A DNA stretch of 36,865 bases. Source: Clostridiaceae bacterium. Lineage in GTDB: Bacteria > Bacillota > Clostridia > Oscillospirales > Acutalibacteraceae. Shown here one piece after another: positions 2,718-31,155 of this stretch. Position 1 is the stretch's first letter, and the number at the start of each line of letters is the position of its first letter. Both the position numbers and the translations under genes were made by a program. The stretch lies in assembly GCA_016288315.1 (NCBI GenBank), contig JAEEYU010000015.1, forward strand, positions 1 through 36,865, given 5' to 3'. The notes below the pieces were generated by a model. That model had not been told where the DNA came from, did no database searches, and worked only from the letters and a program-made list of their open reading frames with translations.

Positions 2718-4877
2718 ATGAGTATTCGCATAGCGCTCGCGGGCAACCCCAACAGCGGCAAAACAACACTTTTCAATGCTCTCACCGGCTCAAACCAGTA
2801 TGTCGGCAACTGGCCGGGCGTAACTGTTGAGAAAAAAGAGGGCAAGCTCAAAAAGAACAGTGATGTCACAATCACCGACCTTCCCGGCATCTACTCGTTA
2901 TCTCCATACACAATCGAGGAGGTTGTCGCGAGAGATTATCTTATCGATGAGAAGCCCGACGCAATAATCAACATCGTTGACGGCACAAACCTTGAAAGGA
3001 ATCTCTACCTCACCACACAGATTGTCGAACTCGGAATCCCGGTGGTTGTTGCCGTTAATATGATGGATGTCGTCAAAAAGAACGGCGACGTCATTGACAT
3101 CAACGAGCTTTCACGTCAGATTGCCTGCCCCGTCGTTGAAATATCCGCACTCAAGGGCACGGGAATCGACAAAGCGGTTGAGACGGCAATTGAAGCGGCA
3201 AAGGGTAAGCCCGGCGTTCCCCAGCACAGCTTCAGCGGGGCGGTTGAACACGCCCTCGCCCACATTGAAGAGAGACTGCTTCACGATATGCCCTCCGAGC
3301 AGCAGAGATGGTATGCCGTCAAACTCTTCGAAAGTGATGAAAAGGTTATTGAAAAGCTTAAAATAAGCGCAGATGACCTCGCTCATATAAAAGAAGATAT
3401 TGAAGCGGCGGAAAACGAGCTTGACGATGACGCCGAGTCAATCATTACAAACGAAAGATATGTTTACATTTCATCCGTAATCAAATCCTGCTACAAAAAG
3501 GCAAACAAGGGCAAGCTTTCCACCTCGGATAAAATCGACAAAATCGTCACCAACCGTTTTCTCGGCCTTCCGATTTTCGCCGCGGTTATGTTCCTTGTTT
3601 ATTATATCGCCATGCAGACAATAGGCGCATTTGCAACCGACTGGGTTAATGATGTTCTCTTCGGCGAGTGGGTTCCCAACGGAGTGAGCGCCCTGCTTGA
3701 AAGCCGTGTTCCCGAATGGCTCTTCGGCCTTATCAACGACGGTATTGTTGCAGGTATCGGTGCCGTTCTCGGCTTCGTTCCTCAGATCCTTGTTCTCTTT
3801 GTTATGCTTGCCTTCCTTGAGGGCTGCGGTTATATGGCGCGTGTCGCCTTCGTAATGGACAGAATCTTCCGTCATTTCGGTCTTTCAGGCAAATCGTTCA
3901 TCCCGATGCTTATCGGCACGGGCTGCGGCGTTCCCGGCGTTATGGCGTCAAGAACAATTGAGAATGAACGCGACCGCCGTATGACTATAATGACAACAAC
4001 CTTCGTTCCCTGTTCCGCAAAACTGCCGATAATCGGTCTTATCGCCGGCGCACTGTTCGGCGAGTCCGGTCTTGTGGCAACCTCGGCATATTTCATCGGC
4101 GTTGCGGCGATTATCGTTTCGGGCATTATGCTTAAAAAGACAAAGCGCTTCGCAGGCGACCCCGCACCCTTCGTAATGGAACTTCCCGCCTACCACCTTC
4201 CCACCGTCGGAACTGTTCTCCGCTCAACCTGGGAGCGCGGCTGGTCGTTCATCAAAAAAGCGGGCACCGTCATCCTCCTTTCAACAATCGTCATCTGGTT
4301 CTTCCTTTCATTCGGCTTTGAAAACGGCTTCGGTATGGTTGAAGATGTTGACAATTCTCTTATGGCAAAAATCGGCAATGTCTTCGCGTGGCTCTTCATT
4401 CCGCTCGGCTTCGGCAGCTGGAAAACAGCTGTTGCCGCCGTCACAGGCCTTATTGCAAAAGAAAACGTCGTAAGCACATTCGGTCAGCTTTACCACTACG
4501 GCGGAGAGCTTGCCGAGAACGGCGACGAAATCTGGTCGGCGCTTGCAGCGGATTTCAACGCAATGAGCGGCGGTCACGGAGCACTTGCAGGTTATTCGTA
4601 TCTCATATTCAACCTTCTCTGCGCTCCCTGCTTTGCGGCAATCGGCGCTATCAAACGTGAGATGAACAACGCAAAATGGACCTGGTTCGCAATCGGCTAC
4701 CAGTGCGGTTTTGCCTACCTCATTTCGCTCATCGTCTTCCAGTTCGGCTGCCTTTTCACGGGCGATTTCACAAGCCACATAATCGGCATTATCGCTGCGG
4801 TCGCTGCATTTGCAGGGCTCTGCTATATGCTTGTCAGAAAGAACAAATACAACGAAAACCACCTCTTGGTTAAATAA
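2718..4877 (+). CDS. feoB: Ferrous iron transporter FeoB
   Basis: FeoB imports Fe(II) across the cytoplasmic membrane. The 719-residue length is normal for the family. The N-terminal G-domain shows G1 GNPNSGKTT (9-17), the FeoB-specific run VGNWPGVTVEKKEG (about 29-42) covering G2, G3 DLPG (54-57), G4 NMMD (114-117) and G5 SALKGTG (143-149). A helical guanine-dissociation-inhibitor region follows (to about 270), then the membrane domain with two gate repeats containing the Cys-bearing segments GTGCGVPGV and LLCAPCFA. The gene has a GGAAAGG site before ATG 2718. It is co-transcribed with two feoA genes and the small Cys-rich protein. Control by the divergent iron repressor is inferred from four matching palindromes. 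Confidence 0.97.
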   Translation: MSIRIALAGNPNSGKTTLFNALTGSNQYVGNWPGVTVEKKEGKLKKNSDVTITDLPGIYSLSPYTIEEVVARDYLIDEKPDAIINIVDGTNLERNLYLTTQIVELGIPVVVAVNMMDVVKKNGDVIDINELSRQIACPVVEISALKGTGIDKAVETAIEAAKGKPGVPQHSFSGAVEHALAHIEERLLHDMPSEQQRWYAVKLFESDEKVIEKLKISADDLAHIKEDIEAAENELDDDAESIITNERYVYISSVIKSCYKKANKGKLSTSDKIDKIVTNRFLGLPIFAAVMFLVYYIAMQTIGAFATDWVNDVLFGEWVPNGVSALLESRVPEWLFGLINDGIVAGIGAVLGFVPQILVLFVMLAFLEGCGYMARVAFVMDRIFRHFGLSGKSFIPMLIGTGCGVPGVMASRTIENERDRRMTIMTTTFVPCSAKLPIIGLIAGALFGESGLVATSAYFIGVAAIIVSGIMLKKTKRFAGDPAPFVMELPAYHLPTVGTVLRSTWERGWSFIKKAGTVILLSTIVIWFFLSFGFENGFGMVEDVDNSLMAKIGNVFAWLFIPLGFGSWKTAVAAVTGLIAKENVVSTFGQLYHYGGELAENGDEIWSALAADFNAMSGGHGALAGYSYLIFNLLCAPCFAAIGAIKREMNNAKWTWFAIGYQCGFAYLISLIVFQFGCLFTGDFTSHIIGIIAAVAAFAGLCYMLVRKNKYNENHLLVK

Positions 4878-24993: not shown

Positions 24994-25022
24994 TTGACTT
25001 TTATTATATATTTTAATATAAT
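24994..25022 (+). promoter_or_regulatory. Promoter of the hyp cluster, leaderless arrangement
   Basis: TTGACT (24994-24999), 17-bp spacer, TATAAT (25017-25022). Seven bases separate the -10 from the hypB ATG (25030), so the predicted start of transcription is the A of that ATG. No Shine-Dalgarno sequence fits. Confidence 0.75.
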
Positions 25023-25029
25023 TCAATTT

Positions 25030-25695
25030 ATGGAAATATTTACAATAAAAGAGGATATCCTCTCAAGAAACAATGAACAGGCAAAAGATGTCCGCGCTCT
25101 GCTTGACGGCAAAGGCATATTCTATGTCAATCTTATGTCGTCGCCCGGCGCAGGCAAAACCACCGTTTTGTCAAAACTCATTCCCCGCCTCTCAGATGAT
25201 TTCAGAATCGGAGTCATAGAGGCGGATATTGACTCAGACAAAGACGCGCTCGCTATTGAGCGCGAAACGGGAGCAAGGGTTATTCAGATTCATACCGCAG
25301 GCGCGTGCCACATAACCTGCCAGATGTCGCTCGAGGCGCTTCAGGCACTTGGCACAGACGGTCTCGACCTCATTTTCCTTGAGAATATCGGCAACCTCGT
25401 CTGCCCCGCCGAATTTGACACGGGAGCAGATATGAATTTAGTGCTGTTAAGCGTTCCCGAAGGCGACGACAAGCCACTGAAATACCCTCTTATGTTTGAG
25501 GTGGCACACGCAGTTGCCGTCACAAAAACCGATGTGGCGCCCATATTTGACTTCAGCTTCGAAAATGCCGAAAAAAACATCAGAAAGCGTAATGACTCGG
25601 CAAAAATCTTCTTTACATCCGCTCTGAACGGCAAAGGCATTGACGAACTTGAACAATACATCAGAAGCGAAACTGTCAGAAAAATCAAAAAGTAA
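25030..25695 (+). CDS. hypB: HypB-type nickel-chaperone GTPase (first copy)
   Basis: HypB is a SIMIBI GTPase that, with HypA, delivers nickel to metalloenzymes. This 221-residue copy has P-loop SSPGAGKTT (37-45), EADIDSDKDA (64-73), the G-domain metal site with Cys93-His94 in GACH and Cys125 in NLVCPAE, switch motif LENIGN (117-122) and TKTD (165-168). It lacks the N-terminal His-rich nickel store and the CxxCGC motif of the E. coli protein. It begins a five-gene run ending in hypA. The start is unusual: it lies at the predicted transcription start, with no ribosome binding site, so it may be translated from a leaderless mRNA. The upstream frame to 24937 begins inside the previous terminator and is rejected. 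Confidence 0.92.
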   Translation: MEIFTIKEDILSRNNEQAKDVRALLDGKGIFYVNLMSSPGAGKTTVLSKLIPRLSDDFRIGVIEADIDSDKDALAIERETGARVIQIHTAGACHITCQMSLEALQALGTDGLDLIFLENIGNLVCPAEFDTGADMNLVLLSVPEGDDKPLKYPLMFEVAHAVAVTKTDVAPIFDFSFENAEKNIRKRNDSAKIFFTSALNGKGIDELEQYIRSETVRKIKK

Positions 25696-25720
25696 TAAAT
25701 CAGAGGAGGAGAATAGATTT

Positions 25721-27178
25721 ATGGCTGACAAAAACGAAAGAATCTGTATCATCGGCGGAGGTCCCGCAGGTCTTTCCTGCGCAATGTATCTCGAAAAAAA
25801 GGGTTACTCGGACTATGTTATTTATGAAAAGCTCGGCAAGGTCGGCGGCAAATGCTGGTCGCCCAAGCTAAAGGTAAAGCACAACGGCGTTGAAGAAGAA
25901 AGAAGCTTTGAAACCGGCGCAATCATGGGCGCAATCACCTATCACGCAGTAAGCGAAATGGAAGAATTCGGCGGCTACTACCACAAGGGTCCCGATTTCA
26001 AACACGGCGAGCCGAATATGAGAAGAGAATTCCGCAACCTTGACGGAACGGTGGACCATCCCTTCGAGCCCAAAGTGAATTTCTCCATCGGCAAAATGCT
26101 CAAACTGCTCAAACTCAAAAAGCAGATGAAAAAGCTCAACGAGCTTATGCAGACCAAATATGTCGGCTATGACTGCTACGGTCACCTCGGCGTAGCCAAG
26201 GGCGAATACTACGGCATTTCCAAGGGCGTTGACGGCTATTGCGGAGCCACAAAAGAGAGCTCCTTCCCCAACTATATCAAGGGCACAAACCCGAACCTCA
26301 AAGACCTCGCCCTTCCTTTCTCGGAGTTCTGCAAAATAAACGGCGTTGAAGAGGTTCAGAGAATCTGGATAGCTCCCTTCACCTCCTTCGGCTACGGCTT
26401 CTTCGATGAGATTCCCGCCGCTCTTGTTATGAAATATCTCGACGTTACCACCGCTCTTGAGTTTGTCAATATGAAGCTCTGGACCTGGCAGGACGGAACG
26501 CAGGAGATTTACGAGAGCGTCAACAGAAAGCTTATGCACCCCGCAGTGCTCGAGACAGAGGTTGTCAAGGTTGACCGCGCAGACGGCAAAGTCACCGTCA
26601 CAATCAGAAAGAACGGCGAAGAGAGCACCGAGACCTTCGACAAGCTTATCGTTACAACTCCTCTTGATTATTTCAAGGATTATGCCGATGCAACCGAGGA
26701 AGAAAAAGAACTCTTCGGCAAAATCATCCACGAAAGATACTGCGACTACATAGCCACGTTTGAGCCCGGCAAGAGCCCCAACATCTCCGGCTATATGGTT
26801 GACAATATGGTTCCCGAAAGACTCGGTCACGCAATGGTTTATTACAACAGATGGCAGCACCTTGACAGAGACTGCCCCGCAACCGTCTATGCGCTTGCAA
26901 ACCATACGGGAACACCCGATGTCGATTATGACACCGTAATGAAAACAATGGATGAGGATATGAAAAAGGTCGGCTTCCCCATCAAAGAGAAGCTCTATGC
27001 CCAGGAGGTTTATTACTGCCCGCACGTATCTCCCAAGGATTACGCCGACGGCTGGTATGACAAGCTTGAAGCTCTCCAGGGCAACCTCAACACCTACTAC
27101 GCAGGCGAAATCATTTCCTTCGGCGATATGGAAGACACCTGCGCCGCCAGCAAAGATATTATCGGAAGATTCTTTTAA
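25721..27178 (+). CDS. FAD-dependent oxidoreductase of the flavin amine oxidase-like superfamily
   Basis: A 485-residue flavoprotein. The N-terminal Rossmann motif ICIIGGGPAGLSCAMYLEKKG (dinucleotide loop GGGPAG near 12-17) binds FAD, followed by VIYEKLGKVGGKCW (about 33-46), the second conserved FAD contact of NAD(P)-binding-8/amine-oxidase-like proteins. The C-terminal FAD motif is near YYAGEIISFGDMEDTCAAS (about 460-478). No membrane segment or Fe-S motif is visible. Its substrate is unknown. A strong GAGGAGG site precedes ATG 25721, 25 bases after hypB; the next hypB follows almost at once, so it is embedded in the nickel-chaperone operon. Confidence 0.85.
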   Translation: MADKNERICIIGGGPAGLSCAMYLEKKGYSDYVIYEKLGKVGGKCWSPKLKVKHNGVEEERSFETGAIMGAITYHAVSEMEEFGGYYHKGPDFKHGEPNMRREFRNLDGTVDHPFEPKVNFSIGKMLKLLKLKKQMKKLNELMQTKYVGYDCYGHLGVAKGEYYGISKGVDGYCGATKESSFPNYIKGTNPNLKDLALPFSEFCKINGVEEVQRIWIAPFTSFGYGFFDEIPAALVMKYLDVTTALEFVNMKLWTWQDGTQEIYESVNRKLMHPAVLETEVVKVDRADGKVTVTIRKNGEESTETFDKLIVTTPLDYFKDYADATEEEKELFGKIIHERYCDYIATFEPGKSPNISGYMVDNMVPERLGHAMVYYNRWQHLDRDCPATVYALANHTGTPDVDYDTVMKTMDEDMKKVGFPIKEKLYAQEVYYCPHVSPKDYADGWYDKLEALQGNLNTYYAGEIISFGDMEDTCAASKDIIGRFF

Positions 27179-27184
27179 TTGACT

Positions 27185-27847
27185 ATGCAGGAAGTCAGAA
27201 CAATCCTTTTGTCCAAAAGCGTTTTTGAAGACAATGATGCGCAGGCGGAGCTTTTCCGCTCCGGCCTGCGCAAAAAAAGAATCTGCCTTGTCAACGTCAT
27301 GTCCTCCCCGGGAAGCGGAAAAACCACGCTCCTTGTTGCGCTTATCAATGCTCTTAAAGAGTCGTTCAATATAGGCGTTATGGAGGCGGATATTGACTCC
27401 GACAAGGATGCCGTCACGGTTGCCGAAAAAACCGGAGTGCGTTCAGTCCAGCTTCATACGGGCGGTATGTGCCACCTTGACGCGGGAATGACGCAGCAGG
27501 GGCTTTCTGCGCTCGGCGACGGGCTCGACCTCGTTTTCCTTGAAAATGTCGGCAATCTCGTCTGCCCTGCGGAATACGACACGGGCGCTACCGTGAATAT
27601 GGTTATTCTCTCCGTGCCGGAGGGCAATGACAAGCCGCTCAAATATCCGCTTGTTTTTGAAAAGAGCGAGCTTGCCGTAATAAGCAAAACAGACACTCTG
27701 CCTTATTTCAATTTTGATATGGATGAGTGCAGGCAATACATAAAGGCAAGAAATGCCGATGCCTCGGTTATTGCGGTTTCGGCAAAAACCGGCGAAAATA
27801 TGGATGAACTCATAAACTGGTTTGTCCGAAAACTATCCGAGAGGTGA
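27185..27847 (+). CDS. hypB: HypB-type nickel-chaperone GTPase (second copy)
   Basis: A second, clearly diverged HypB of 220 residues. It has P-loop SSPGSGKTT (40-48), EADIDSDKDA (67-76), Cys96-His97 in GMCHLD, ENVGNLVCPAEYDTG with Cys127, and SKTD (167-170). All catalytic and metal-site residues are kept, so it is not a dead copy. It shares about half its residues by eye with the first. It follows the flavoprotein stop by only a few bases and has no good Shine-Dalgarno sequence. ATG 27185 or TTG 27179 may be used by re-initiation. Its 3' end contains the GAGAGGTGA ribosome binding site of the next gene. Confidence 0.9.
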   Translation: MQEVRTILLSKSVFEDNDAQAELFRSGLRKKRICLVNVMSSPGSGKTTLLVALINALKESFNIGVMEADIDSDKDAVTVAEKTGVRSVQLHTGGMCHLDAGMTQQGLSALGDGLDLVFLENVGNLVCPAEYDTGATVNMVILSVPEGNDKPLKYPLVFEKSELAVISKTDTLPYFNFDMDECRQYIKARNADASVIAVSAKTGENMDELINWFVRKLSER

Positions 27848-27851
27848 ATAT

Positions 27852-30710
27852 ATGCTTAAACAGAGCAAAGCCGTCCGAAGCGAATATCAGAACGAAAAAG
27901 ATTTTCAGAAGAATTACGCAAAACTCGGCAAAAGAATTACAGATGTTGTAGTTCACAAAATAGGCGGAGTTTCCGCCGATGACCCCGAATACTGGGGCCT
28001 TCGCGAAGTGCTCACCCCCGAAATGGTTGACCTTTGCAACAAAATGAAGCTTCGCAAACACTACACTCTCGACGACCTCATCAAGCTTCACAAGGGCGTT
28101 GACCCGAAGCACCTTGAAGAGGTCTATGAGCAGATGTCCGTTATCGGCATTATCGAATATGATTACGGCGATAACTACACTCACAATCTTAAAGACGACC
28201 ATCCCATAAAGGACGCTCCCAAAATCAAGCGTTACCGTCTCCCGTTCTTCGTGCCCGGCTCAGCGGAGCTCTTCAACTCCTCGCTCGACCGTATCGAGAA
28301 GAACCCAGCAGTAACAAGCTTTTTTGAGAGAATGACCTATATTCCTCTTGCCGGCATCACCCATATGGTTGCCCCGGGCGGTATGGGCATCGGTATGCAC
28401 GTCATTCCCGTTGAGCAGGCAATCAACGCTCAGCAGGAGGCAATCACTCTTGAAAAAATTTCATACTGGCTTGAAAAATATGACGGTCACATAGCCGCCG
28501 GCATCTGCTCGTGCAGAGCGTCAAGGGCAGTGCTTGACGAGGGCTGCACGGATGACTGCAACGACTGGTGCGTTCAGCTCGGCGATATGGCGGATTATGC
28601 AGTTGAAACCCACCGCGCCCACTATATCACCAAAGAGCGTGCGCTCGAAATATTCGAGCTCGCCGAAAAGAACGGCTACGTTCATCAAATAACAAACATC
28701 GACGGTGAAAACAAGATTTTCGACATCTGCAACTGCAACGTGCGAATCTGCAACGCTCTTAGAACGTCAATGCTTTTCAACACTCCTTACCTTTCAAGGA
28801 GCGCCTACACATCAAAGGTTGACCGCGACAAGTGCGTCGCCTGCGGCAAGTGCGTTGAAATCTGCCCCGCAGGTGCCGTAAAACTCGGTCAGAAGCTCTG
28901 CAAAAAAGACGGTTCTCCCGTTGAATACAAACACGCCATCCTTCCCGACAAAGTCCGCTGGGGCGAATACGCCTGGGATGAAAACTACCGCGACACCAAG
29001 GTTATGTCAAACACCTACGCACAGGGCAGTGCGCCATGTAAAGCCGCCTGCCCGGCTCACGTTCCCATCCAGGCATACCTCAAGCTTGCCCGCGACGGCA
29101 AATACCGCGAAGCGCTGGCTATGATAAAAACAGAAAATCCCTTCCCCTCAGTCTGCGGCCGTGTCTGCAACAAGCGTTGCGAAGACGCCTGCACAAGAGG
29201 TCTTGTTGACGCTCCCGTCTCAATTGATGAGGTTAAAAAGTTTGTAGCCGACCTTGAACTCAGAAGCGAAGACCGCTACATCCCCGAAAAAACGGTTCAG
29301 TCCGTTTACGGCAAATGGGATGATAAAATAGCAATAATCGGCGGCGGTCCCGCAGGTCTGTCAGCGGCTTACTATCTCGCGGAGATGGGCTACACACCCA
29401 CAGTGTTTGAGAAGAATCCCACTCCCGGCGGTATGCTCACATACGGCATTCCGAGCTACAAGCTTGAAAAGGATGTCATTGAGGCAGAAATAGATGTTTT
29501 ACGCAAACTCGGCGTTGAAATCAGATGCGGTGTCAACGTCGGCGAAGATGTCACAATCGACGAACTGCGCAAGCAGGGCTATAAAGCATTCTATATCGCA
29601 ATCGGCTGCCAGGGCGGCAGACGCCCGGGAGTTGCAAACGATGACGCACAGGGCACCGACATAGCCGTTTCATACCTTCGCAAGAGCTATGAAAACAGAG
29701 AATCTTTTACCGGCGACGTGGTTGTGGTCGGCGGCGGCAACGTCGCAGTTGACTGCGCGCGCAACGCCCACCGTCTCGGCGCCTCGAGCGTCAAAATGTT
29801 CTCTCTCGAGTCCCGCGATATTATGCCCGCCACAAAGCAGGAAATAGCCGAAACACTTGAAGAGAATATCGAAATCTGCAACAGCTGGGGTCCCAAAGAG
29901 GTGCTCACCGATGATTCGGGCAAGGTTACCGGTATCATCTTCAAACGTTGCACCTCCGTCTTTAATTCAGACGGCAAATTCGCCCCCGAATATGATGAGA
30001 ACGAAACAATCGAAGTCAAGGCAGACAAAATCGTTTTCGCAATCGGTCAGACAATCGAATGGGGCAAGCTTCTTGACGGCACAAAGGTCGAATTCTGGCA
30101 CGGCAATTACCCCGTGGCAGACAAATTCACCTATCAGACCGCGCAGGAAGATATATTCGTAGGCGGCGACGTTTACACAGGTCCCAAATTTGTCATTGAT
30201 GCCATTGCGGCAGGTCACGAGGCGGCGGAGAGCCTTCACCGTTTTGTCAGACCCAAGGCGGATATGACAATCGGCAGAAACAGACGCGCCTATACTCCTC
30301 TTGACAAAGACGACATAACCTTCCCCGATTACGATAAAGCCGGCAGGCAGGAAGCGGGTATGGATAATTCCGAAGACCATAAGATGTCTTACAAGGATCT
30401 CCACCTCACCTTTACGGAGGAGCAGGTCAGAACCGAAACCGCAAGATGTCTCTCCTGCGGCGCATCCTATGTTGACCCAAATCTCTGCATCGGCTGCGGT
30501 CTCTGCACAACCAAGTGCCAGTTTGACGCCATCCACCTCATCAGAGACAATCCGAAGTGCTCCGATATGCGTGTGGCTGAAGACAAGGTAACGAATCTTA
30601 TGAAATATGAGATTGCCCGTCTCGGCAAAATTATCGCAAATTCCGGCTCCGAAGAGGCAAAAATTATGCGTGAAAAACGCAAACAGTGGAAAAGGGCGCA
30701 GAAAGACTGA
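27852..30710 (+). CDS. 952-residue multi-cluster Fe-S / GltD-like NAD(P)H flavoprotein
   Basis: Modules in order: an N-terminal domain (about 1-320) with eight Cys in two groups (219, 221, 232, 236, 240 and 293, 295, 300); a 4Fe-4S ferredoxin motif CVACGKCVEICP (Cys328, 331, 334, 338); a GltD-type N-terminal cluster region (Cys396, 400, 435, 439, 443, 447); FAD loop IIGGGPAG (495-502); an NAD(P)H loop VVVGGGNVA (624-632); the FAD-closing motif IFVGGDVYTGP (768-778); and a C-terminal ferredoxin-like pair (Cys866, 869, 879, 882, 885, 889). The core resembles the glutamate synthase small subunit and related electron-transfer flavoproteins, without a GltB partner here. It probably moves electrons from NAD(P)H or ferredoxin to an unknown acceptor. 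ATG 27852 overlaps closely with hypB2. Confidence 0.88.
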   Translation: MLKQSKAVRSEYQNEKDFQKNYAKLGKRITDVVVHKIGGVSADDPEYWGLREVLTPEMVDLCNKMKLRKHYTLDDLIKLHKGVDPKHLEEVYEQMSVIGIIEYDYGDNYTHNLKDDHPIKDAPKIKRYRLPFFVPGSAELFNSSLDRIEKNPAVTSFFERMTYIPLAGITHMVAPGGMGIGMHVIPVEQAINAQQEAITLEKISYWLEKYDGHIAAGICSCRASRAVLDEGCTDDCNDWCVQLGDMADYAVETHRAHYITKERALEIFELAEKNGYVHQITNIDGENKIFDICNCNVRICNALRTSMLFNTPYLSRSAYTSKVDRDKCVACGKCVEICPAGAVKLGQKLCKKDGSPVEYKHAILPDKVRWGEYAWDENYRDTKVMSNTYAQGSAPCKAACPAHVPIQAYLKLARDGKYREALAMIKTENPFPSVCGRVCNKRCEDACTRGLVDAPVSIDEVKKFVADLELRSEDRYIPEKTVQSVYGKWDDKIAIIGGGPAGLSAAYYLAEMGYTPTVFEKNPTPGGMLTYGIPSYKLEKDVIEAEIDVLRKLGVEIRCGVNVGEDVTIDELRKQGYKAFYIAIGCQGGRRPGVANDDAQGTDIAVSYLRKSYENRESFTGDVVVVGGGNVAVDCARNAHRLGASSVKMFSLESRDIMPATKQEIAETLEENIEICNSWGPKEVLTDDSGKVTGIIFKRCTSVFNSDGKFAPEYDENETIEVKADKIVFAIGQTIEWGKLLDGTKVEFWHGNYPVADKFTYQTAQEDIFVGGDVYTGPKFVIDAIAAGHEAAESLHRFVRPKADMTIGRNRRAYTPLDKDDITFPDYDKAGRQEAGMDNSEDHKMSYKDLHLTFTEEQVRTETARCLSCGASYVDPNLCIGCGLCTTKCQFDAIHLIRDNPKCSDMRVAEDKVTNLMKYEIARLGKIIANSGSEEAKIMREKRKQWKRAQKD

Positions 30711-30713
30711 TAT

Positions 30714-31079
30714 ATGCACGAACTCGGTATAGTTATGAATGTCGTTGAGCAGGTGGATAAAATAGCCGCCGACAACGGCGCACAAAAGGTAGTCGGAATC
30801 ACAATGGAAATCGGCGAAGTCAGCACCATTGTGCCCGAGCTCTTTCTCGATGCTTTCAACTGGGCAAAAAAGCGGACCTCCTATCTGCAGGAAGCCGAGC
30901 TTGAAATGATAATAATCGAGGGCAGAACCTACTGCCGCGCCTGCGGTGAAACCTACAGAACCACCGAATACGGCAAAAAATGCCCGCACTGCGACAGCCC
31001 CGAAACATATCTCCTGACAGGCGATCAGGTAGTCATCAAGGATATTTCCGCCGTCTTTGAACAGGAGAAAACGGAGTAA
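30714..31079 (+). CDS. hypA: HypA-type nickel metallochaperone
   Basis: This 121-residue protein has the invariant nickel-binding N-terminus MHELGI (His2, Glu3) and a zinc site of two C-x2-C pairs (Cys74/Cys77 and Cys90/Cys93) in a rubredoxin-like knuckle. HypA binds nickel and hands it on with HypB. It starts three bases after the 952-residue flavoprotein stop, so it is in the same operon; the weak GAAAGACTG stretch is the only candidate ribosome binding site. There are no hypC, D, E or F genes and no Ni-Fe hydrogenase or urease genes within the window. Confidence 0.94.
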   Translation: MHELGIVMNVVEQVDKIAADNGAQKVVGITMEIGEVSTIVPELFLDAFNWAKKRTSYLQEAELEMIIIEGRTYCRACGETYRTTEYGKKCPHCDSPETYLLTGDQVVIKDISAVFEQEKTE

Positions 31080-31108: not shown

Positions 31109-31155
31109 AAGCGGCGGAACCTGCTTTAACGCAGATTCCGCCGCTTTATCATTTT
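31109..31155 (+). terminator. Terminator of the hyp cluster
   Basis: Perfect 11-bp stem AAGCGGCGGAA (31109-31119) / TTCCGCCGCTT (31136-31146), extended by an inner CTGC/GCAG, then TATCATTTT. Confidence 0.85.

Follow-up and report, generated by a model that had tools for sequence, protein, structure and literature searches.

A five-gene operon from a Clostridiaceae bacterium as a possible nickel-dependent system for polyunsaturated fatty-acid biohydrogenation

A compact operon of five genes lies at positions 25030-31079 of a 36,865 nt stretch of DNA (positions 1-36,865 of contig JAEEYU010000015.1, assembly GCA_016288315.1, Clostridiaceae bacterium), the whole of which is referred to here as the window. 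The genes, all on the + strand and with intergenic gaps of 25, 0, 4 and 3 bases, encode in order a HypB-type GTPase (HypB1), an FAD (flavin adenine dinucleotide) protein related to PAI, the polyunsaturated fatty-acid isomerase of Cutibacterium (Propionibacterium) acnes, a second HypB (HypB2), a 952-residue iron-sulphur flavoprotein resembling the putative isoprene reductase IsrA, and HypA (Table 1). A preliminary description, based on the sequence alone, had noted this order, which is confirmed: the genes were called as it stated and the same order recurs in related loci. We propose tentatively, and with somewhat less than even confidence, that the operon represents a nickel-dependent biohydrogenation of polyunsaturated fatty acids, in which a diene-making isomerase and an Ni-Fe-S flavoenzyme with its own two-GTPase nickel loader have spread among ruminant-gut bacteria.

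Table 1. Features of the operon and its flanks, with window positions and supporting evidence.
Feature	Position	Strand	Evidence or remark
Sigma-70-like promoter, TTGACT-17-TATAAT	24994-25022	+	11/12 consensus matches; suggestive only
hypB1, nickel-chaperone GTPase	25030-25695	+	TIGR00073; CH...C site; 4lps match
PAI-like FAD enzyme, predicted polyunsaturated fatty-acid double-bond isomerase	25721 (ATG)-27178	+	PF01593; likeness to 2b9w
hypB2, second nickel-chaperone GTPase	27179-27847 (start TTG 27179 or ATG 27185)	+	TIGR00073; clade apart from HypB1
IsrA-like Fe-S/FAD oxidoreductase, 952 residues, predicted nickel-dependent conjugated-diene reductase	27852-30710	+	PF14691; PF07992; ferredoxin motifs; Cys pattern and spacing
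N-terminal domain of the 952-residue protein (residues 1-345), likely nickel client	27852-28886	+	Relatives stand alone beside hypA-hypB in L188, L189 and L159
Six invariant Cys (C219, C221, C240, C293, C295, C300), candidate Ni-Fe-S site	28506-28751	+	Alignments; equivalent to IsrA 'cluster V'
hypA, nickel metallochaperone	30714-31079	+	PF01155; MHE; two CxxC
Possible terminator, long inverted repeat then T-rich tail	~31109-31147	+	Read by eye; not listed by the site scan

The FAD protein matches C. acnes PAI (PDB code 2b9w) over its whole length, with 43% identity over 414 aligned residues, and the fold of 2b9w extends throughout, the next structural matches being oxidases and related flavoenzymes. 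These whole-length matches of sequence and structure rule out a plain amine-oxidase identity. Residues R103, F224 and F249 (numbered from window position 25718; one less if counted from the ATG at 25721) correspond by sequence alignment to the functional residues R88, F168 and F193 of PAI, and are invariant in the 20 rows of alignment A1. C. acnes PAI (2b9w-2bac) is described as an isomerase of linoleate to t10,c12 conjugated linoleic acid (CLA), whereas the product isomer of the window protein is predicted only as a conjugated diene; the window protein also differs in being some 60 residues longer and in the location of its gene in an operon with a reductase-like gene. Many assemblies labelled Bacilli or Erysipelotrichaceae (L016-L095) contain a PAI-like protein 80-89% identical to that of the window, with HypB and IsrA-like proteins only about 54-71% identical to their window counterparts. 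Stronger constraint on the PAI-like protein of these assemblies, or its more recent transfer, may account for this.

The 952-residue protein comprises, in order, an N-terminal domain (N-domain), a ferredoxin motif at residue 328, PF14691 (Fer4_20), PF07992 and a C-terminal ferredoxin motif at residue 879; Fer4 was also matched. Residues from around 390 to 800, including PF14691, constitute a GltD/Nfn-like NAD(P)H-FAD module, the Fer4_20 and FAD/NAD(P) domains being shared with Nfn, GltD and dihydropyrimidine dehydrogenase (9n5u, 5jca, 4ylf). In comparison with those enzymes, the N-terminal ~300 residues with their candidate metal site are additional here: they have no PDB counterpart by sequence, and the first 320 residues matched no Pfam family. 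A plain GltD or Nfn identity is thereby ruled out, since the first ~300 residues lie beyond those matches. Within this region six cysteines are invariant in 18/18 rows of alignment A2, and in all 18 hand-picked full-length rows of a wider alignment.

The same arrangement characterises IsrA (VUZ27132.1), a likeness that rests on the published description of its domain order, Cys positions and neighbours. According to Kronen et al. 2023 (PMC10134865), IsrA is a 901-residue, isoprene-induced oxidoreductase of Acetobacterium wieringae ISORED-2, considered a putative isoprene reductase, and its family was proposed to consist of nickel-dependent alkene (isoprene) reductases. Those authors propose that IsrA is itself the nickel client, through a six-Cys 'cluster V' whose CxC motifs occupy 180/182 and 254/256; the ferredoxin motif is at 289. 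In the window protein the CxC motifs, C219xC221 and C293xC295, are 74 residues apart, the same spacing as C180/C182 and C254/C256 of IsrA, and both they and the ferredoxin motif (328 here, 289 in IsrA) are shifted uniformly by 39 residues. The two proteins are alike as FAD/NAD(P)H oxidoreductases of around 900 residues with an N-terminal Cys6, PF14691, PF07992 and a ferredoxin motif at each end, and also in their adjoining hypA and hypB genes, their occurrence in a genome without NiFe hydrogenase and their proposed status as nickel clients. A wider association is reported there too, with HypA near 73% and HypB near 56% of 988 IsrA homologues. However, the isr operon is described as containing isrA, two hypA, one hypB and a 4Fe-4S ferredoxin gene (PMC10134865), whereas here we find a single hypA, two hypB and, in place of a separate ferredoxin gene, one for a PAI-type isomerase, with relatives that are largely ruminant-gut Clostridia and Bacilli. 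As the gene content of isr is not reproduced, the window operon is a relative of the isr operon and not the isr operon itself.

Against TIGR00073 (cut-off 121.2) HypB1 scored 220.1 bits (2.4e-65) and HypB2 214.5 bits (1.2e-63), and HypB1 matched the Helicobacter pylori-type HypB 4lps at 3.1e-43. HypA scored 101.3 bits (4.1e-29) against PF01155 (gathering cut-off 28.9) and 71.5 bits against TIGR00100, below the cut-off of 88.1. The metal and GTPase sites claimed in the preliminary description are indeed present: both HypB proteins carry the P-loop SSPG[A/S]GKT and the nickel site CH...C (C93-H94/C125 and C98-H99/C129, respectively), and HypA carries MHE and two CxxC, the P-loops and the HypA motifs having been read from the sequence. 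Among 85 HypB sequences a looser P-loop pattern fitted 85 and the CH...C pattern 84. A quick FastTree analysis of these 85 sequences (midpoint root, no support values, some loci included twice) places HypB1 and HypB2 in separate clades that are retained jointly across the PAI-linked loci; copies from L044, L045 and L047 labelled HypB2 by BLAST group inside the HypB1 clade, and the L087/L144 copy labelled HypB1 groups outside it. Further tandem hypB pairs occur in L126, L127, L132, L136 and L139. The sequences fit an interpretation of HypB1 and HypB2 as two specialised subunits, or as the heterodimer suggested in the preliminary description. The H. pylori proteins (4lps, 2kdx, 6g81) are similar in having a HypB with CH...C and no long N-terminal metal-binding extension, and a HypA with MHE and CxxC pairs; by contrast, no hydrogenase or urease client was found here (see below for the genomes covered), and two divergent HypB proteins are kept together.

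Scanning contigs with A1 yielded 172 confirmed relatives, and the locus counts given here use the best 80 of the 172, most of them from metagenome assemblies. Gene orders were counted from tblastn because the gene caller missed a few genes seen by tblastn (e.g. in L083). All five genes are present in the window order in 14 of the 80 loci, which argues that the order is not due to chance. The first four genes occur in this order up to a contig end in six more, and the first two in L085; the other loci are rearranged or have only the FAD gene in the fetched stretch. Overall, an IsrA-like match was found in 35 and a HypB match in 33 of the 80 stretches. In 21 cases the title of the locus mentions a ruminant or its gut, in 30 more it bears a RUG or RUI label, which stands for rumen, and in 29 it does neither. 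An oddity among these genomes is the 0.8-Mb assembly G153, where the operon genes appear twice, with equal scores and in mirrored order, on contigs C3 and C7, perhaps an assembly duplication.

The PAI-like and IsrA-like genes tend to occur together. Genome-wide searches covered 50 of the 80 loci's genomes, hand-chosen for longer contigs and diversity, and 48 of these 50 PAI-like genomes contain an IsrA-like gene. Among 148 relatives, a PAI-like gene was found in 12, eight of them at 93-100% identity, and all 12 have an IsrA-like gene, which occurs alone in 9 of the 136 others (Fisher p 2e-12, kinship ignored). Similarly, 398 genomes from the phylum include six with a PAI-like gene, eight with a full-length IsrA-like gene (open frames of 899-964 residues, counted by the reader) and five with both (5/6 against 3/392; Fisher p 4e-9, again ignoring kinship). 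The association extends to more elaborate or divergent clusters. L127 (1602-15786) encodes a PAI-like protein (1.9e-137 to 2b9w), two IsrA-like proteins, two HypB and HypA, along with an acyl-ACP thioesterase (PF01643), a ferredoxin-reductase-type protein, a second amine-oxidase-type FAD protein and, identified by eye, ligase-like and carrier-protein-like genes; this larger cluster, and that of L126, may build or modify a special lipid. In L180, and similarly in L179 and L183, the gene for a distant PAI-like protein (7.3e-54 to 2b9w in L180) has hypA, an IsrA-like gene and a gene for a DUF5692 protein as neighbours, this last membrane-protein family recurring beside distant IsrA-like relatives (two copies tested). 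A different situation is seen in L071 (G185), from an assembly labelled Spirochaetaceae, where a PAI-like gene (79%) is present with no IsrA-like or HypB match, through transfer, loss or contamination.

Turning to the recipient of the nickel, the preliminary description had regarded the genes as a nickel-insertion set without a hydrogenase, and this has held up. The organism's own genome (2.15 Mb, 78% complete) contains no NiFe hydrogenase, and only the two window HypB proteins exceed the cut-off there; other nickel enzymes, urease included, were sought within the window. Among the 50 genomes NiFe hydrogenase and the urease alpha subunit were each found in none, nickel carbon monoxide dehydrogenase (Ni-CODH) above the cut-off likewise in none (two matches below it scored 27.7 and 25.3 bits) and LarC in 10, while HypB was found in 47, with exactly two copies in 38. 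Hydrogenase, urease and Ni-CODH were therefore rejected as clients. The refuting conditions set out in the preliminary description were put to the test with this outcome: no NiFe hydrogenase occurs in the 50 genomes or in the organism's own, and hypC-F were absent from the window, where they were sought.

What the hyp genes do accompany is the IsrA-like gene. In the 50-genome search, the 30 IsrA-like loci with the best matches all have hypA within 1.5 kb (30/30), and all but one have hypB within that distance (29/30), even where the FAD gene is elsewhere. For 30 distant, hand-picked full-length copies (40-65% identity), hypA or hypB lies within three genes in 21; this set omits L126 (IsrA-like genes missed or cut by the gene caller), L139 (no such gene in its stretch) and L145 (a partial copy), and L138, L143 and L144 are the same contigs as L093, L090 and L087. 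Furthermore, a standalone N-domain of ~360 residues is encoded directly beside hypA and hypB at three of 22 fetched standalone loci (L154/L188, L155/L189 and L159), a linkage not reported for the isr ferredoxin in the available text of PMC10134865 and possibly a minimal nickel-client unit; the standalone genes lie at ~8989-10071 in L188 and ~9175-10266 in L189. By eye, no residues separate hyp-linked from unlinked N-domains, the three linked standalone copies sharing CxCR and CNCCxCCC with most unlinked ones. Overall, the partner that the hyp genes follow is the IsrA-like protein (in three loci only its N-domain) and not the PAI-like protein. Because it is tied to hypA and hypB across genomes, the 952-residue protein is the likely nickel client. 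The suggestion in the preliminary description that the flavoproteins are clients of, or participants in, nickel loading thus survives for one of the two, the other being a relative of a fatty-acid isomerase with a different role; and its unrecognised nickel redox enzyme proves not to be wholly unrecognised, given the 2023 proposal for the IsrA family (PMC10134865). A separate link to nickel was observed in L129 (G083:C15, 8590-15002), where an IsrA-type protein is tied to nickel-pincer cofactor genes: its gene starts 31 bases downstream of a LarC-type gene (PF01969) in a cluster with LarB-like (AIRC), LarE-like (PP-loop) and phosphoglucomutase genes, with no hypA or hypB within three genes.

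On balance, and by no great measure, we lean towards reading the five genes as a two-step fatty-acid biohydrogenation pathway whose reductase is loaded with nickel. The reading draws on the gene order, the homologies, the conserved residues, the co-occurrence, the absence of hydrogenase and urease from the genomes searched and the hypA-hypB genes beside standalone N-domains. In the first step the PAI-like enzyme would shift one of the double bonds in a methylene-interrupted dienoic acid, for example linoleate, giving a conjugated diene. The IsrA-like enzyme, with NAD(P)H as donor, would then accept electrons through its GltD/Nfn-like FAD domain and pass them through four canonical [4Fe-4S] sites to the six-Cys site of the N-domain, where the conjugated diene would be reduced to a monoene, much as isoprene and butadiene are reduced by isoprene-reducing Acetobacterium strains (PMC10134865). 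A conjugated diene suggests itself as the common substrate since the PAI product, isoprene and butadiene are all conjugated dienes. HypB1 and HypB2 with HypA would supply nickel to the six-Cys site of the N-domain. At its simplest the pathway would run from linoleate to a CLA to an 18:1 acid, the first two steps of biohydrogenation, and would serve as an electron sink or to detoxify fatty acids. We infer the presence of nickel in the site, and likewise the substrate, the reaction, the flow of electrons, the order of steps and the purpose.

Several points weigh against this pathway. As regards the coupling, kinship is ignored in the co-occurrence statistics; among the 12 PAI-like relatives, four have nothing closer than versions at 56-59%, placed in a different gene context; and 9 of the 21 relatives with an IsrA-like gene lack a PAI-like one. 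Two genomes (G173, G185) have a PAI-like gene without IsrA-like or HypB genes, a third (G195) has PAI-like and IsrA-like genes without HypB, absences that may be real or due to missing data, and G218 has a distant PAI-like gene with no IsrA-like match. As regards nickel, 8 of the 50 genomes have a single HypB, and LarC, belonging to another nickel system, is found in 10, including the three in that set nearest to the window (G148-G150); nine of the 30 distant IsrA-like copies (L127_02, L129, L130, L138, L140, L141, L143, L178, L184) have no hyp gene within three genes, and 19 of the 22 standalone N-domain loci have none nearby. The structural models are of limited help: that of the IsrA-like protein is poor (AlphaFold mean predicted local distance difference test, pLDDT, 56.7; predicted template-modelling score, pTM, 0.42) and unusable for the geometry of the six cysteines, and R103, F224 and F249 fall within or next to parts of the PAI-like protein that were modelled with low confidence. 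Proteins of the PAI family may act on other substrates, and 43% sequence identity leaves the substrate unfixed. Finally, nickel, activity and substrate are predictions for the window proteins and, in the text of PMC10134865 available, proposals for IsrA.

The latitude in substrate leads to the alternative that deserves most attention, unlikely as we consider it: the IsrA-like protein may be a nickel-dependent alkene reductase with a substrate other than a fatty acid (a terpene, a carotenoid, a sterol or some further conjugated lipid), for which the PAI-like protein would be the double-bond isomerase or desaturase. The PAI fold family is broad, as its next structural matches with oxidases and related flavoenzymes indicate; distant PAI-like partners, only 24-28% identical to that of the window, adjoin IsrA-like genes in L179, L180, L183 and L186; and the IsrA authors themselves suggested terpenes (PMC10134865). 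An improbable inversion of roles would make the PAI-like flavoenzyme the terminal reductase and the 952-residue protein a mere relay of NAD(P)H electrons, its nickel or other metal being structural or involved in electron transfer. The GltD/Nfn-like electron-input architecture would suit such a relay, as would the ferredoxin-like appearance of standalone N-domains, mostly (19/22) without hyp genes nearby, and FAD enzymes of the PAI fold perform hydride chemistry. It is hard to square with the IsrA-like genes found without a PAI-like partner in 9 of 21 relatives, or with an isoprene-induced isr operon which, as described (PMC10134865), has no PAI-like gene.

Two further alternatives do away with the connection between the hyp genes and the flavoproteins. 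HypA and HypB might serve another nickel enzyme elsewhere in the genome, their position here being incidental. LarC in 10/50 genomes, the three nearest relatives in the set among them, speaks for this, as does a genome 78% complete and a LarC search that covered the 50 genomes rather than the organism's own. We nevertheless think it very unlikely: NiFe hydrogenase, urease and Ni-CODH above cut-off are each absent from all 50, 40 of which lack LarC too, yet HypB is present in 47, and the hyp linkage holds across gene orders and taxa, and with the N-domain alone in three loci. Hardly credible at all is the idea that a hydrogenase maturation operon has left an incomplete remnant here. HypB does exceed, and HypA approach, the cut-offs of the hydrogenase models; against that, the window lacks hypC-F, the organism's own genome and the 50 others lack a hydrogenase, and the duplicated HypB clades are conserved.

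Of the bounding promoter and terminator in the preliminary description, a promoter-like site was found upstream, and the possible terminator was seen by eye only. The promoter call is only suggestive because 11 such sites were seen in the region against 6.0 (sd 2.8) in shuffled sequences. The -10-like hexamer ends eight bases 5' of the hypB1 ATG (window 25017-25032), so the message may be leaderless or begin at another codon. The closest neighbours encode a rhamnosidase, a GDSL-type esterase and a protein that weakly matches the metallo-beta-lactamase fold. As the preliminary description had it, no nickel enzyme, hypC-F or nickel transporter was detected by Pfam among the 27 window proteins scanned, the FeoB ferrous-iron transporter at 2718-4877 being the sole metal transporter among them. 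No Rfam match reached gathering scores in the window. A plasmid search produced one partial relative (43% of the query, in a Subdoligranulum variabile record); its remaining matches were short and for the most part bore a hypB annotation.

Biohydrogenation in the rumen influences the saturated, trans and conjugated fats found in milk and meat. The passages of rumen reviews and studies available to us name isomerase and CLA-reductase activities, and no reductase gene of the IsrA-like kind. A literature search, consisting mostly of listings and with preprints and most subscription journals outside it, brought up none that connects IsrA or HypA/HypB to the hydrogenation of fatty acids. The main text of the isr paper (PMC10134865) does not contain 'linole', 'isomerase' or 'rumen', mentions 'fatty acid' only in other connections and counts terpenes and other unsaturated hydrocarbons among the compounds on which IsrA homologues may act. 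If the proposed pathway is true, there would be testable genes for the isomerisation and the first reduction of biohydrogenation, and the cluster would help to explain the saturation of dietary fat by rumen microbes. Fatty acids would join the substrates of nickel enzymes, linking rumen lipid chemistry to nickel supply, and a role in animal guts would become plausible for the IsrA family. In that case nickel would be the catalyst behind the saturation of dietary fat in the rumen, in parallel to the use of nickel in industrial fat hardening.

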